In this document: piece by piece, positions 37,914 to 43,261 of the stretch | Layout of the letters: every line of letters begins with the position of its first letter | How positions within the stretch are numbered: the stretch's first letter is position 1 | Source of the DNA: Cellulomonas sp. WB94 | GTDB lineage: Bacteria; Actinomycetota; Actinomycetes; Actinomycetales; Cellulomonadaceae | Reading direction: 5' to 3' | DNA: 64,000 bases | Assembly (NCBI RefSeq): GCF_003115775.1 | Contig: NZ_QEES01000002.1 | Span: 1,116,001-1,180,000, forward strand | Made by a program: the position numbers and the translations under genes | The notes under the pieces: model-generated | Database searches by the model: none | Seen by the model: only the letters and a program-made list of their open reading frames with translations | Told to the model about the DNA's origin: nothing

Positions 37914-38285
37914 ATGTCGACGATCTCCGAGCACGACGACGATGCGGGCACCACCGCCGCCGGGTGGCACCCTGACCCGTCGACCGGCGAGCCGGTGTGG
38001 TCGAGCGGCCGGCAGCCGGGCGCGAGCGGGCCGTCGGCACCGGCGCCCGTCATCAACAACACCCTCGCGACCGTCGGCCTGGCCCTCGGGATCGTGGGCC
38101 TCGCCCTGGCGTTCATCCTCGGCCCCTGGGCGGCGTTGGCTGCGATCGTGTGCTCGGCGGCCGCGCTGCCACGGGCGTCGACCCTCGCGTCGCACGGGTA
38201 CGCGCCGGTCGGCAGGGTCCAGGCGATCGCGGGGGTGCTGCTCGGGATCGGTGGCGTCGTCGTCGCGCTGGTCATCGGCTCCTGA
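37914..38285 (+). CDS. Small membrane protein with DUF2510/DUF4190-like features
   Basis: This 123-residue protein has an N-terminal GWHPDPSTGEPVW segment resembling the short DUF2510 motif, followed by a Pro/Ala linker. Two hydrophobic helices follow (about 48-80 and 100-122), as in DUF4190 proteins. ATG 37914 has GAGGGG upstream. The last 14 nt overlap the convergent APC permease gene. Proteins like this are common in actinobacteria and of unknown role. Confidence 0.7.
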   Translation: MSTISEHDDDAGTTAAGWHPDPSTGEPVWSSGRQPGASGPSAPAPVINNTLATVGLALGIVGLALAFILGPWAALAAIVCSAAALPRASTLASHGYAPVGRVQAIAGVLLGIGGVVVALVIGS

Positions 38286-39522
38286 CGCGCAGCCGCCACC
38301 ACCGCAACGCGACCCCGACGGCGAACACCGCGACCCCGGTCGCGACCGCACCGAGCGGCAGCGTCGCGACGAGCACCACGCACCCCACGAGCCCGGTCCA
38401 GGCCAGCGCACGCGGGTAGCGCCGCTGCTCGACCGGCTGCGTCAGAGCCGAGGCGTTCGCGACCGCGTAGTACAGCAGGACCCCGAACGACGAGAACGCG
38501 ATGGCGCCGCGCAGGTCTGTGACCAGGACGAGCGCTGACACGACGACCGCCACCGCGACCTCGGCGTGGTGCGGGACGCGGTAGCGCGGGTGCACGGCAT
38601 CCAGCCAGCGCGGCAGGTCACCCTCACGGGCCATCGCGAGCGTCGTCCGCCCGATGCCCGCCACGAGCGCCAGCAAGGCCCCGAGCGCGGCCGCGGCAGC
38701 CCCGACGCGCACGACCGCGCCAACCCAGCTGGCTCCCGAGCGCGCCGCCGCGGCGGCCAGCGGGGTCGAGCCGGCGGCGACACCGTCGGGCCCGAGGACC
38801 GCGAGGACCGTGACCGCGACGACGCCGTAGACGACCACGGTGATCGCGAGCGCGAGGACGATCGCCCGCGGGATCGTCCGCGCCGGGTCACGCACCTCCT
38901 CGCCGAGCGTCGCGAGCCGCGCGTACCCGGCGAACGCGAAGAACAGCAGCCCCGCGGCCTGCAGGATCGCGTACGGCCCGCCGTGCAGGACGCCGTCGAG
39001 CCCGATCCGGTCGACGTCGGCGCCGCCGCCCGCCGCACTGGCCGCGACGAGGACAGCGAGCGCCGCGAGCACGACGACGACGAGCACGACGGTCAGCCGC
39101 GCCGTCCGCGTGATCCCGCGGTAGTTCACGGCCGCGAGCCCCACGACGGCCGCCACCGCGAACGGTCGCTGCCACCCGGGCGGTGCGACGTACGCGGCGA
39201 ACGTGAGCGCCATCGCCGCGCACGACGCGAGCTTCCCGACGACGAAGCCCCACCCGGCCAGGTACCCCCACCACGGCCCGAGCCGCGCGCGCCCGTACAC
39301 GTAGGTGCCGCCCGACGTCGGGTGCACGGCCGCGAGCTGCGCCGACGACGTCGCGTTGGCGACGGCGACCAGGGTGGCAATCGCGAGACCGACGAGCAGC
39401 CCGCTGCCGGCCGCTCGGGCCGCGGGACCGAACGCCGCGAACACCCCGGCGCCCAGCATCGAGCCGAGTCCGATCATCACGGCAGAGCCGGTGCCGAGCC
39501 TCCGTGCGAGCTGGTCCGTCAC
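38272..39522 (-). CDS. APC-family amino acid permease
   Basis: This 416-residue membrane protein has about twelve TM helices. TM1 has the APC signature GLGSMLGAGVFAAFGPAA, TM3 has the HPTSGGTYVYGRARLGPWWG segment, and the TM8 region has AGIGRTTLAMAREGDLPRWL. It is a proton-coupled amino acid or polyamine importer by family, with the substrate not determinable. It stands 23 nt downstream of the aminotransferase gene on the same strand, so it is likely co-transcribed from the SAM-IV-controlled promoter. Confidence 0.87.
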   Translation of the reverse strand: MTDQLARRLGTGSAVMIGLGSMLGAGVFAAFGPAARAAGSGLLVGLAIATLVAVANATSSAQLAAVHPTSGGTYVYGRARLGPWWGYLAGWGFVVGKLASCAAMALTFAAYVAPPGWQRPFAVAAVVGLAAVNYRGITRTARLTVVLVVVVLAALAVLVAASAAGGGADVDRIGLDGVLHGGPYAILQAAGLLFFAFAGYARLATLGEEVRDPARTIPRAIVLALAITVVVYGVVAVTVLAVLGPDGVAAGSTPLAAAAARSGASWVGAVVRVGAAAAALGALLALVAGIGRTTLAMAREGDLPRWLDAVHPRYRVPHHAEVAVAVVVSALVLVTDLRGAIAFSSFGVLLYYAVANASALTQPVEQRRYPRALAWTGLVGCVVLVATLPLGAVATGVAVFAVGVALRWWRLRVRSR

Positions 39523-39545: not shown

Positions 39546-40940
39546 TCACTCGACGGCGGGGCCGCACGCCGCCGCGGTCGCCGCGAGCCCGTCGAGACCG
39601 TGCACCGGGATGAGCGGCCGCGTGTCGTCGGCGACGACCCAGCAGCCGTCCTCGACGACGTACCGGGCGCGGGGGCCGCTCGTGAGGTAGTCGGTGAGCG
39701 CGTTCAGGAGCCGGTCGACCGCCTCGCCAGGAGTGCCGACACCGACCGACGCGCGGATCGCGCCGCCCGGTGCCCCCAGCCGCACGAGCAGCGGGTGCGC
39801 GCAGAAACGCCCGTCGCGCACGCCGATGCCGTGCTCGGCGGCGAGGTAGGCGGCCACGAGGCCCGGGTCGTGGCCCTCGACCGTGAACGTCACGACCCCG
39901 ACGGGCTCGGTCGAGTCGGGCCAGATGCGCAGGACCTCGACCCCGGCGATCGCGTCGAGGCCGGCCACGAGTCGGGTCCGGAGCGCGACCTCGTGCGCCG
40001 CGAGCGCGCCGTCGGGCAGCGCAGCAAGGACCTCGCAGGCCTCGGCGAGCGCGATGGCTCCGATGACGTTCGGGGACCCGGCTTCGTGCCGGGCCGGAGC
40101 CGGCTGCCACAGTGTCCGGTCGGCCCGTACGTCACGCACCGCACCTCCCCCTGCGAGGTACGGCGCACCGTCGTCCAGCCAGTCACGGCGGCCCACGAGG
40201 GCGCCTGCACCGAACGGCGCGTAGGTCTTGTGGCCGGAGAAGGCGACGTAGTCCGCACCGGTCGCGGTGAGCGAGAAGCCGCGATGAGGGACGAGCTGCG
40301 CGCCGTCGACGACGACCCGCGCCCCTGCAGTGTGCGCGAGCGCGACGACATCCGCGACCGGCAGGGCCTCGCCCGTGACGTTGGACGCGCCGGTCACCGC
40401 GACGAGCGCGTAGGCGGTGGACGCCAGCTCGGCGGCGAGGGTGGCGAGGGTCGCGGCGACCGTCGGCTCGATGGGGAGGACGGTCGAGGCGCGGCCCGTC
40501 CCCAGTCCCCACGGCAGCAGGTTCGCGTGGTGCTCGAGGTCGAGCACGAGGACGCGACCCGGGGTGCCGTCCGGCCCCGCGGGGACGACGTTCGCGAGCA
40601 GGTTGAGCGCGTCGGTCGTGTTGCGCGTGATGATCGCGACGTCGTCGGACCGGGCGCCCACGAACCGCGCGATGGTCTGCCGCGACGCCTCGTACAGCGC
40701 CGTGGACACCTGCGAGAGGTAGCCGGCGCCGCGGTGCACCGAGGCGTAGAGCGGCAGGACCTCGGTCACCCGGGCCGCGACCGCCTCGAGGGCCGGCGCG
40801 CTCGCGGCGTAGTCGAGGTTCGCGTAGGTCCGTGCGGTGCCGTCGACGAGCGGCACCTGCGTGCCGGAGCCGACGACGGGGAGCAGCGGCAGCTGCGTGG
40901 ACGGGGTCGCCCAGACGGCGCGCTCGGCGGTGACAGACAT
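39546..40940 (-). CDS. Class V aminotransferase (cysteine desulfurase-like)
   Basis: This 464-residue PLP enzyme shows LDYAASAPALEAV, ITRNTTDALNLLA, LEHHANLLPW (PLP-stacking His), VVVDGAQLVPH (Asp) and the PLP lysine in AFSGHKTYAPFGAG, all in SufS/CsdA order. A late small domain with HDPGLVAAYLAAEHGIGVR is also present. GAGGAG precedes ATG 40940. A SAM-IV riboswitch lies upstream on the same strand, tying the gene to sulfur amino-acid status. Selenocysteine lyase or desulfurase activity is likely, but the substrate is not proven. Confidence 0.85.
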   Translation of the reverse strand: MSVTAERAVWATPSTQLPLLPVVGSGTQVPLVDGTARTYANLDYAASAPALEAVAARVTEVLPLYASVHRGAGYLSQVSTALYEASRQTIARFVGARSDDVAIITRNTTDALNLLANVVPAGPDGTPGRVLVLDLEHHANLLPWGLGTGRASTVLPIEPTVAATLATLAAELASTAYALVAVTGASNVTGEALPVADVVALAHTAGARVVVDGAQLVPHRGFSLTATGADYVAFSGHKTYAPFGAGALVGRRDWLDDGAPYLAGGGAVRDVRADRTLWQPAPARHEAGSPNVIGAIALAEACEVLAALPDGALAAHEVALRTRLVAGLDAIAGVEVLRIWPDSTEPVGVVTFTVEGHDPGLVAAYLAAEHGIGVRDGRFCAHPLLVRLGAPGGAIRASVGVGTPGEAVDRLLNALTDYLTSGPRARYVVEDGCWVVADDTRPLIPVHGLDGLAATAAACGPAVE

Positions 40941-41016
40941 GGCACTCCTCGGCAGATCTGTGGGGAGCCGACGGCCAGCACCCCGCGCTTGCCGTCCACC
41001 GAACGGCGGACGGCCA

Positions 41017-41094
41017 GGTCGTCACCCGGGGCACCCCACCGCGGAGGAGGGTTGCCGGCCAGCAAGCCGGGGCTTTCTGCTGGCACTCGTGACC
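41017..41094 (-). promoter_or_regulatory. SAM-IV riboswitch
   Basis: The minus strand reads GGTCACGAGTGCCAGC, then AAGCCCCGGCTTGCTGGC, CGGCAACCCTCC and GGTGGGGTGCCCCGGGTGAC, closing with GACC. These are the conserved blocks of the actinobacterial SAM-IV aptamer, with the GGTC/GACC closing stem. A further hairpin (CCGTCC and GGACGG arms) lies between the aptamer and the gene. It controls the aminotransferase gene at 40940, about 76 nt downstream. SAM binding is expected to lower expression. Confidence 0.85.
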
Positions 41095-41211
41095 TGCGAC
41101 GAGGATCGCCGCTCCCGCACGGCAGTGTCAACGGAGAACCGGGAAGTCTCGGATCGCGGACACTCTGTCCGCGGACTGGACCACATCCCCGGACGGTCGT
41201 ACGATCGCGGT

Positions 41212-41313
41212 CACCATCCAGAGCGGCTGAGAGATCTGGCTCGACGACGCCGCAGCAACCCGCGAGCACGCACCGTGCTCGGCCGAGGGTGCTACCGCCA
41301 GGACCGATGGAGG
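41212..41313 (+). promoter_or_regulatory. SAM-I (S-box) riboswitch overlapping the ribosome site
   Basis: The S-box blocks appear in order: CCATCCAGAGCGGCTGAGAG, CTGGC, ACGACGCC, GCAGCAACC, a GAGCACG/CGTGCTC hairpin, GGGTGCTACCGCC and CCGATGG. P1 is CCATC (41214-41218) with GATGG (41306-41310). Its 3' strand shares two bases with the GGAGG ribosome site (41309-41313) of the next gene. Ligand-stabilised P1 should therefore hide the site, a translational switch. No terminator is seen. Confidence 0.85.
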
Positions 41314-41317
41314 CGTG

Positions 41318-41560
41318 ATGAGCACGACACCTGACCCCACGACCGACGACGGCACGAGGACGGCGACCCAGACCCGACTCCGCTACCGCCTGCTGACCGG
41401 ACCCGACGACAGGACGTTCTGCGAGCGCATCAGTGCCGCGCTCGACGACGGCTACGTGCTGCACGGCGGACCGACGCTCACGTTCGACGGCGACCGCGTG
41501 ATCGCCGGGCAGGCCGTCGTCCTGCCCACCAACCCGACCCCCGAGACGAGGCTCGTATGA
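41318..41560 (+). CDS. DUF1737 protein
   Basis: This 80-residue protein matches DUF1737: RLRYRLLTGPDDRTFCERIS, then AALDDGYVLHGGPTLTFDG and VIAGQAVVLP. ATG 41318 is 4 nt after GGAGG, within reach of the SAM-I riboswitch. It is first in a SAM-controlled operon with a rhodanese and metZ, which suggests a role in sulfur transfer, although the family has no assigned function. The stop overlaps the rhodanese start (ATGA). Confidence 0.85.
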   Translation: MSTTPDPTTDDGTRTATQTRLRYRLLTGPDDRTFCERISAALDDGYVLHGGPTLTFDGDRVIAGQAVVLPTNPTPETRLV

Positions 41561-41982
41561 GCACGCAGTACGCAGGCGACCTGACCCCCCAGCAGGCCTG
41601 GGACGTCCTCGCGGCCGACGAGCGCGCGGTGCTCGTCGACGTCCGCACCGACGCCGAGTGGCGCTACGTGGGTGTCCCCGACACGTCGTCCCTCGGCCGA
41701 CGCCCCGCTCTGATCGAGTGGGTGACGTACCCGAGCGGCCTGCCCAACCCCTACTTCGTGGCGTCCCTCGCAGCCGCCGGCCTGGCGCCGGGCGACGAGC
41801 GGCCGGTCCTCTTCCTGTGCCGGTCGGGCGTGCGCTCGGTCGCCGCGGCGACGGCCGCGACCGCCGCCGGCTTCGGCCCTGCGTACAACGTGCTCCAGGG
41901 GTTCGAGGGCGACGTCGGGCCCGACGGCCACCGCGGGGCGCACGGCTGGCGCGCGGCCGGCCTGCCCTGGACCCAGCCGTGA
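41557..41982 (+). CDS. Rhodanese-like sulfurtransferase
   Basis: This 141-residue single rhodanese domain has the active-site loop FLCRSGVRS, with the catalytic Cys expected to carry persulfide. Typical VLVDVRTDAEWRYVG and GFEGDVGPDGHRG segments are also present. It lies between DUF1737 and metZ and is coupled to both by overlapping stops and starts. It may hand sulfide or persulfide to the sulfhydrylase. That transfer is an inference from the operon. Confidence 0.88.
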   Translation: MSTQYAGDLTPQQAWDVLAADERAVLVDVRTDAEWRYVGVPDTSSLGRRPALIEWVTYPSGLPNPYFVASLAAAGLAPGDERPVLFLCRSGVRSVAAATAATAAGFGPAYNVLQGFEGDVGPDGHRGAHGWRAAGLPWTQP

Positions 41983-43261
41983 GCGCGGGCGGCGCGCGTC
42001 GCACCCCCGGTCCGGGCGACTGGGACGCCCGCCGCTCCCCCGGGACTCCCTACGACCCGACACTCTCGCGGTCCGCGGCGGCCTCGTGCGCAGCGAGTTC
42101 GGTGAGATGTCCGAGGCGCTGTTCCTCACGCAGGGCTATGCGTACCCGAGCGCCGGCGAGGCCGAGGCGGCCTTCGGCGGCGAGGTCGACCGCTTCCTGT
42201 ACTCGCGCTACGGCAACCCGACGGTCTCGACGTTCGAGGAGCGGCTGCGCCTGATCGAGGGCGCCGAGGCCGCGTACGCCACGGCCAGCGGCATGTCGGC
42301 GGTCTTCACGGCGCTCGCGGCCCTCGTGCGGTCCGGGTCGCGGATCGTCGCGTCGCGCGCGCTGTTCGGCTCGACGGTCGTGATCTTCGACGAGATCCTC
42401 GCGAAGTGGGGGGTGCGGACCGACTACGTCGACGGGCACGTGCCCGAGCAGTGGGAGGCCGCGCTCGCCACCCCGGCGGACGTCGTGTTCTTCGAGACGC
42501 CGTCCAACCCGATGCAGGACCTCGTCGACATCGCGGCCGTCAGCGCGCTCGCGCACGCCGCGGGGGCCGTCGTCGTCGTCGACAACGTGTTCGCCACGCC
42601 CGTGCTGTCCCGGCCGCTCGAGCACGGCGCGGACGTCATCGTGTACTCCGCGACCAAGCACATCGACGGCCAGGGCCGGGTGCTCGGCGGCGCGATCCTC
42701 GGGACCGACGAGTTCATCCACGGGTCGGTGCAGACGTTCATCCGGAACACCGGACCGTCGCTGAGCCCGTTCAACGCCTGGGTCCTGCTCAAGGGTCTCG
42801 AGACCATGTCGCTGCGGGTGCGCCACCAGACGGCGTCCGCGCTGCAGCTCGCGACGTGGCTCGAGCAGCACCCCGCGATCGCGACGGTCCGCTACCCGTA
42901 CCTCGCCTCGCACCCGCAGCACGAGCTCGCGCTGCGCCAGCAGACGGCCGGTGGCACCGTTGTCACCTTCGCCCTCGCCGTGCCCGACGACGCGTCCGCC
43001 GACGACGCCAAGAAGGCCACGTTCGGCTTCCTCGACGCCCTGCGCGTCATCGACATCTCGAACAACCTCGGCGACGCGAAGTCGATCGTCACGCACCCCG
43101 CGACGACGACGCACCGCAAGCTCGGACCCGCGGGGCGCGCCGCGGTCGGGATCGGCGAGGCGACCGTGCGGCTGTCGGTCGGGCTCGAGGACCCCGCGGA
43201 CCTCGTCGACGACCTGTCCCGCGCCCTCGACGGCCTCGGGGCGGGCCGTCCAGCCGCGTAG
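41979..43261 (+). CDS. metZ: O-succinylhomoserine sulfhydrylase, 5' end frameshifted
   Basis: This is a PLP Cys/Met-metabolism enzyme that makes homocysteine from O-succinylhomoserine and sulfide. From 42086 the frame is intact: SRYGNPTVSTFEERL, FETPSNPMQDLVDI, PLP Lys in VYSATKHIDGQGR and SNNLGDAKSIVTHP. The conserved N-terminal DTLAVRGGLVRSEFGE lies upstream of the first in-frame start, while GTG 41979 (overlapping the rhodanese stop) is in another frame. One extra C in the run 42037-42041 would join them into 427 residues. Either an error or a real 5' frameshift. Confidence 0.85.

Follow-up and report, generated by a model that had tools for sequence, protein, structure and literature searches.

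The closest described relatives of the RNAs considered here are the SAM-I and SAM-IV riboswitch classes. A structural study of SAM-IV reports that its ligand-binding core is homologous to that of SAM-I, while the periphery of the RNA is distinct (PMC6890682). For SAM-I leaders, the location of a ribosome-binding site inside P1 has already been published, in a report that also addresses how frequently direct translation control is used in Actinobacteria (PMC2258182). In Streptomyces clavuligerus, a SAM-IV RNA precedes a gene for a class-V PLP enzyme, and premature transcript ends have been described for this leader (PMC8269248). With regard to the arrangement of two riboswitches at one locus, the abstract of PMC12452182 deals with tandem layouts, and its definition on the basis of the 'same intergenic region' could include divergent pairs. 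In the main text of that paper, the terms 'divergent', 'opposite strand', 'opposite direction' and 'strand' are absent. Literature searches on divergent riboswitch pairs, on SAM-IV together with SAM-I and on Cellulomonas riboswitches, whose scope excludes the SAM-IV discovery paper, returned no description of the pair presented below.

The stretch of DNA analysed here, hereafter called the window, comprises 64,000 nucleotides. When its whole length was scanned with cmscan at the Rfam gathering thresholds, exactly two matches were returned:

40980..41094, minus strand: SAM-IV aptamer (RF00634; 118 bits, cut-off 38, E 3.3e-21)
41211..41313, plus strand: SAM-I (S-box) aptamer without helix P4 (RF00162; 56 bits, cut-off 44.4, E 3.2e-10)

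The match to RF00634 is full length (model positions 1-116). An earlier, sequence-only reading of this DNA had placed a SAM-IV aptamer on the minus strand and a SAM-I aptamer on the plus strand, and the covariance-model search bears out both calls with scores above the cut-offs. The close layout proposed in that reading is also correct, although the gap between the aptamers measures 116 nucleotides (41095-41210) and not 117. Likewise, the interval that it gave for the pair (41017-41313) ends correctly with SAM-I but is too short on the left, where SAM-IV extends to its 3′ end at 40980, with hairpin P5 and the 3′ pseudoknot strand located beyond 41017. Its view of the two aptamers as unrelated RNA folds is ruled out. 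Given that RF00162 and RF00634 both belong to Rfam clan CL00012, and that the SAM-IV core is described as homologous to that of SAM-I (PMC6890682), the two classes are related designs. The covariance scores, together with the recurrence of the pair in 54 other genome records, exclude a chance origin, and both RNAs probably bind SAM. The genome that carries the window contains two SAM-IV and two SAM-I RNAs in all, and the second SAM-I precedes metF-metE (Pfam MTHFR, Meth_synt_1).

Profile matches confirm both sets of genes that had been assigned to the leaders, namely an aminotransferase and a permease on the minus strand and DUF1737-rhodanese-metZ on the plus strand:

39546..40940, minus strand: class-V aminotransferase, SufS/cysteine-desulfurase-like, 464 aa (PF00266, 266 bits)
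38272..39522, minus strand: APC amino acid permease (PF13520), directly behind the class-V enzyme gene
41318..41560, plus strand: DUF1737 protein (PF08410)
41557..41982, plus strand: rhodanese (PF00581)
42086..43261, plus strand: open part of metZ, coding for O-succinylhomoserine sulfhydrylase (NF005870, 689.5 bits, cut-off 618)

The class-V enzyme scores 275.2 bits against the SufS model TIGR01979, which is under the curated cut-off of 475.1, and its best PDB matches are entries named cysteine desulfurase or aminotransferase. The PLP lysine is kept in 49 of 49 aligned copies and the likely catalytic cysteine (DGRFCAHPL) in 46 of 46, with the window copy included in both counts, and these two residues align with the lysine and cysteine of a solved cysteine desulfurase. 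The SufS-like protein may serve as a cysteine-sulfur enzyme. The active-site cysteine of the rhodanese is similarly kept in all 52 aligned copies, the window's counted, and it is tempting to conjecture that sulfur could travel from cysteine through the rhodanese to MetZ. The score of the MetZ model was computed on the ORF starting at 42086. In this assembly, an N-terminal stretch of metZ (41979-42086) is out of frame with the remainder of the gene, and the MetZ frame lacks a start codon in the stretch before 42086; 15 relatives are open there and have start codons. The frame break may be a sequencing error or a real lesion.

Within the Cellulomonas family, SAM-IV was found in 198 of the 221 genomes surveyed and SAM-I in 201. 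A first, narrow pattern for the tight divergent pair matched 31 of these genomes, and the wider pattern that replaced it matched 81. For five of the 81 (G081, G099, G140, G187 and G197), Rfam reports SAM-I and no SAM-IV at the matched place, and their removal leaves 76 of 221 genomes with a tight pair, most of them judged from listed stretches and not individually by Rfam. The sequence-only reading had proposed a survey of how often the pair is conserved, and the arrangement proves to be recurrent. A census by exact pattern across 84,980 species, whose count is a lower bound given a pattern stricter than that used for the family, returned 60 matches, of which 54 are real pairs as judged by a check of the aptamer cores (52 complete and two with SAM-IV cut at a sequence edge). 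The six others (L067, L085, L086, L095, L105 and L118) were rejected as false. Named hosts are Cellulomonas, Sanguibacter, Paraoerskovia, Sediminihabitans, Jonesia, Pengzhenrongella and Cellulosimicrobium, to which a few metagenome bins are added. Two bins from one sample (BP9), labelled Actinomycetes and Proteobacteria, carry the same pair (L077 and L083), and this double labelling suggests a mis-binned contig.

The 54 census pairs and that of the window were compared as a set of 55, in which the class-V enzyme is encoded at 50 loci, the rhodanese at 53, MetZ at 51 and the DUF1737 protein at 18. Every miss for the enzyme, the rhodanese or MetZ concerns an aptamer located near a sequence edge. 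Wherever the census sequence extends far enough, the pair is flanked by a SufS-like enzyme gene and, at its opposite end, by rhodanese-metZ. The permease was rejected as a conserved part of the module, being present at only four of the 55 loci, in two of which it is the next gene by position after the enzyme. Another arrangement was observed in four genomes of genus g14 (G162-G165; for example, G165 C1:4647291-4648513), each of which carries two SAM-I RNAs on the same strand, separated by ~1.1 kb.

The SAM-I leader joins its aptamer directly to the ribosome-binding site of the first plus-strand ORF:

41235..41239, plus strand: 5′ strand of the pseudoknot, UCUGG, in loop 2 (SAM-I alignment)
41298..41302, plus strand: 3′ strand of the pseudoknot, CCAGG, in J3/4 (SAM-I alignment)
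41309..41313, plus strand: Shine-Dalgarno sequence GGAGG, of which two G residues are shared with P1 (read from the sequence)

In the window, P1 consists of five pairs formed by CCAUC (41214-41218) and GAUGG (41306-41310). The overlap between P1 and the Shine-Dalgarno sequence, GATGGAGG, is present in 48 of the 55 pairs, and in the other seven the Shine-Dalgarno sequence is changed or placed further downstream. In most pairs the start codon is located 12-15 nucleotides 3′ of the first GATG base. Among 28 diverse SAM-I sequences, 98.6% of the 644 cells that represent P1, P2a, P2b, P3 and the pseudoknot between loop 2 and J3/4 are paired, and the covariation score is reached by none of 500 shuffles. 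Both-sided changes are seen in three of the five pseudoknot pairs; P1 and P3 are nearly invariant, and no covariation comes from them. The alignment also reveals that the UGA/GACGAC internal loop in P2 is mostly conserved.

Helix P4 is absent from this aptamer, in which two nucleotides replace 18 columns of the Rfam model and a 13-nucleotide segment separates GGUGC from GAUG. All 83 distinct aptamers parsed from these actinobacterial loci are P4-less in the same manner, with 12-14 nucleotides from GGUGC to GAUG, a count that discounts nine longer values beginning at an earlier GGTGC. In a wider sample of the phylum, 25 of 30 SAM-I loci were parsed, of which 21 have 24-35 nucleotides at the P4 site, a length sufficient for the helix, and four have 11-15. 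Since its score still exceeds the cut-off for the whole model, the window aptamer is a P4-less SAM-I. Our literature searches found no description of a SAM-I RNA of this form.

On the minus strand, three segments at and beyond the 3′ end of SAM-IV can be read as a candidate platform for gene control:

40981..40987, minus strand: 3′ tail with CGCGG, the putative PK-2 strand by position, overlapping the helix A 5′ strand GGGG
40962..40969, minus strand: GGCUCCCC, the 3′ strand of helix A or, alternatively, the anti-Shine-Dalgarno strand of helix B
40945..40950, minus strand: Shine-Dalgarno sequence GAGGAG of the class-V enzyme gene (read from the sequence)

PK-2 is proposed from the complementarity, in the window sequence, of CCGCG near P3 and CGCGG in the 3′ tail. 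The UCCC-rich strand 3′ of SAM-IV has two alternative pairing partners, the PK-2 tail in helix A and the Shine-Dalgarno sequence in helix B. In a set of 51 leaders, each helix exceeds its counterparts in shuffled sequences in strength (mean z of -1.1 for A and -0.7 for B), and they overlap on their common strand by at least 3 nucleotides in 45 leaders (88%), compared with 57% in shuffles. When the strands of helix A were swapped among the 51 leaders, 0 of 2000 swaps matched the energy obtained with a leader's own strands, and swaps restricted to the ten distinct 5′ strands with a start other than GGGG were as good in energy in 2 of 2000 cases; the swap test by contiguous pairs is not significant (179/1000). 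Locking the PK-2 strand in the window is predicted to reduce accessibility of the Shine-Dalgarno sequence from 0.95 to 0.27. Over the 51 leaders the predicted mean moves from 0.298 to 0.253, with accessibility down in 20, up in six and the same in 25. These calculations fit a platform of competing helices that is clear for the window and uneven among its relatives. Because the S. clavuligerus leader ends prematurely (PMC8269248), transcript termination may contribute on the SAM-IV side as well.

SAM-IV RNAs were additionally observed in association with genes of a different kind. Diverged representatives (62-69 bits) are located directly 5′ of phage-type repressor genes in three genera, at L002:1501-1612 (G000 C2:1475784-1475895, minus strand), L216:2506-2623 and L220:2102-2219. 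Nine repressor loci were scanned with Rfam, and SAM-IV was found at three, the window genome's own counted; four phage loci that encode repressor homologues were scanned likewise and contained no aptamer, Rfam reporting no match. The repressor domain corresponds to PHROG 3929, and the sequences are 50-54% identical to repressors among the matches listed (25 of 172 records from Streptomyces phages). It would be striking if SAM proved to control a repressor of this phage type.

The sequence-only reading had the two leaders diverging from one promoter region. A shared region is indeed present, but the 116 nucleotides are better fitted by two putative promoters than by a single one:

41126..41131, minus strand: putative -35 element TTGACA of the minus promoter (a TGTCAA-type hexamer occurs 28-34 nucleotides into 53 of the 55 spacers)
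41102..41107, minus strand: putative -10 element GATCCT of the minus promoter, 18-nucleotide spacer
41176..41181, plus strand: putative -35 element CTGGAC of the plus promoter
41200..41205, plus strand: putative -10 element TACGAT of the plus promoter, 18-nucleotide spacer
41146..41162, between the promoters: conserved element GTCTCGGATCGCGGACA, a candidate protein operator

In most of the 55 spacers, a plus-strand -10 element of the TAGCAT or TACGAT type lies ~20 nucleotides 5′ of the AGAG core. Given the usual promoter spacing, the start of each transcript would coincide with the first base of P1 or be adjacent to it.

Mixed pairs are also found beyond the Cellulomonas family. In a sample of the order, 19 of 297 genomes match a pair pattern. 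Nine pattern loci from outside the family (L144-L152, with L154 and L155 left out) were checked by Rfam, which reports both aptamers in four (L144, L147, L151 and L152), SAM-I and no SAM-IV in three (L145, L146 and L149), and nothing above threshold in two (L148 and L150). In family f14 (L144 and L147), the pair is flanked by a Bac_luciferase monooxygenase gene next to SAM-IV and by a gene for an SBP_bac_5 binding protein next to SAM-I, as determined in L144. In family f8 (L151 and L152), the gene next to SAM-IV codes for a Peripla_BP_4 binding protein and the gene next to SAM-I for a Bac_luciferase monooxygenase, as determined in L151. Among 119 genomes sampled across the phylum, SAM-I occurs in 57 and SAM-IV in 11, and a comparison of the tables finds both classes at E <= 0.001 in six (the SAM-I of G225 is under the cut-off). 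The two classes are adjacent and divergent in two of the six, namely the window's genome and G542 of family f22. In G542, SAM-IV is oriented towards a gene for a class-V enzyme with 57% identity. Located under SAM-I, 164 nucleotides away, is a gene of the 2OG-Fe(II) oxygenase-like type. Rfam-confirmed mixed pairs are present in three further families, flanked by other or partly other genes. The rhodanese-metZ genes are found under SAM-I alone in f14 (L145), and under SAM-IV in two other families (L198 in G542 and L202 in G225). Given that these genes are associated with SAM-I in the Cellulomonas family and with SAM-IV in L198 and L202, the riboswitch class that precedes them is exchangeable.

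We consider it likely, with a probability of roughly 0.8, that back-to-back promoters at this locus serve two translational OFF switches, which act independently and provide coordinate feedback by SAM. This reading builds on matters that are directly observed, namely the covariance-model aptamers, their conservation, the synteny, the overlap of P1 with the Shine-Dalgarno sequence and the energy statistics of helix A. The two promoters would drive divergent sulfur operons, each transcript would begin with one SAM-sensing leader, and the leaders would respond independently to a common signal. On the plus strand, SAM would stabilize the five-pair P1 of the P4-less SAM-I aptamer, the 3′ strand of which enters the Shine-Dalgarno sequence, and formation of P1 would shut off DUF1737-rhodanese-metZ. 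On the minus strand, SAM would stabilize PK-2 of SAM-IV, whose 3′ strand would then be lost to helix A, in which it pairs with UCCC; the freed UCCC strand would cover the Shine-Dalgarno sequence by forming helix B, and the SufS-like enzyme would be shut off. The outcome would be coordinate SAM feedback on homocysteine synthesis and on the neighbouring cysteine-sulfur enzyme. In this scheme, we infer the binding of SAM, the promoters, the direction of switching and the role of the enzyme.

Other readings of the pair must be weighed against this one. As the sequence-only reading suggested, the two leaders might be set to different SAM thresholds, such that one arm of sulfur metabolism would be shut before the other. 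Differences in the periphery of SAM-IV and SAM-I, together with the missing P4 and the P1 of only five pairs in the window SAM-I, are consistent with such tuning, but the location of rhodanese-metZ under SAM-IV in L198 and L202 indicates that class is not bound to gene, and we regard distinct thresholds as unlikely. Even odds are appropriate for the proposal that the pairing is functionless, the two sulfur operons simply being neighbours that each keep their own riboswitch. At the two g15 loci tested (L037 and L041), both riboswitches are kept at a separation of ~1.0-1.1 kb, with an APH-family gene between them in L041, and SAM-I and SAM-IV are non-adjacent in four of the six two-class genomes of the phylum sample, all of which favours mere proximity; against it stands the repeated occurrence of tight mixed pairs, seen in four families and in as many gene contexts. 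These four contexts, and the lack of same-class pairs in our controls, could be taken to mean that the mixed head-to-head pair is a repeatedly assembled bidirectional module in which the mixture itself is selected. A same-class inverted pair would create a long inverted repeat as well as leaders complementary to each other, both of which a mixed pair avoids, and the P4-less SAM-I, which resembles SAM-IV in the absence of P4, would be a structural half-way form if the mixture is selected. A pattern search of the 221 family genomes found no tight divergent SAM-I/SAM-I pair. The SAM-IV/SAM-IV pattern matches 35 places in 32 of the 221 genomes, and Rfam finds two SAM-IV RNAs at none of the 34 places scanned, among which is the mixed pair of the window (the 35th, L207, was assessed by eye). 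However, these controls are limited to a single family and a narrow range of spacing, which counts against selection of the mixture, and we view it as rather improbable.

Control could also reside chiefly in a DNA-binding protein that would act at the GTCTCGnATGnCGGGAC element, and the riboswitches would then form a second layer. Elements of this type (GTCTYR) are present in 41 of the 55 spacers, and 37 of these 41 are located 20-22 nucleotides from the minus -35 element, start to start. Similar elements occur 5′ of several other SAM-I leaders, including those of L056 and L051 and that of metF in the window genome, and the presence of such elements near SAM-riboswitch promoters makes them a lead to a candidate operator of a regulator. 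Nevertheless, the pattern was chosen after the spacers had been viewed, its regular expression misses 14 of the 55, and the copy in the window is an imperfect palindrome, and it seems to us doubtful that a protein is the main control. Two independent translational OFF switches responding to one signal stay our preferred interpretation.

The arrangement is real and well conserved, and it is made of known parts plus a compact SAM-I variant. We regard the mixed pair as a natural test bed and not as a new kind of regulator. Such loci place two related but distinct SAM sensors in the same cell, where they share a ligand and a promoter region, an arrangement that permits direct comparisons of threshold, speed and class exchange. 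They also allow the replacement of one riboswitch class by another to be traced, given that rhodanese-metZ is located under SAM-I in this family and under SAM-IV in others. Moreover, the P4-less SAM-I would show the natural lower size of a SAM-I aptamer, if its binding of SAM proves true.

As with the SAM-IV RNA (RF00634) described in S. clavuligerus (PMC8269248), a class-V PLP enzyme is encoded downstream, but the window copy and a SAM-I leader diverge from a common promoter region of 116 nucleotides, and the SAM-IV leader carries the proposed competition between PK-2 and the anti-Shine-Dalgarno strand. With SAM-I (RF00162), the plus-strand aptamer has in common the core of P1, P2a, P2b and P3 and the pseudoknot between loop 2 and J3/4, and the placement of the ribosome-binding site within the 3′ strand of P1 is a known layout (PMC2258182); it differs in that helix P4 is absent from all 83 aptamers parsed at these actinobacterial loci. 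The SAM-I/IV variant (RF01725) is a relative reported to combine features of both families (PMC2864571, PMC6890682). However, the best clan members reported by cmscan at the two sites in the window are RF00162 and RF00634, and the internal loop of P2, which the variant is described as lacking (PMC2864571), is present in the window. Finally, the pair resembles the tandem or contiguous riboswitches treated in PMC12452182 in that two aptamers occupy one intergenic region, whereas the aptamers of the window belong to separate, divergent transcripts.
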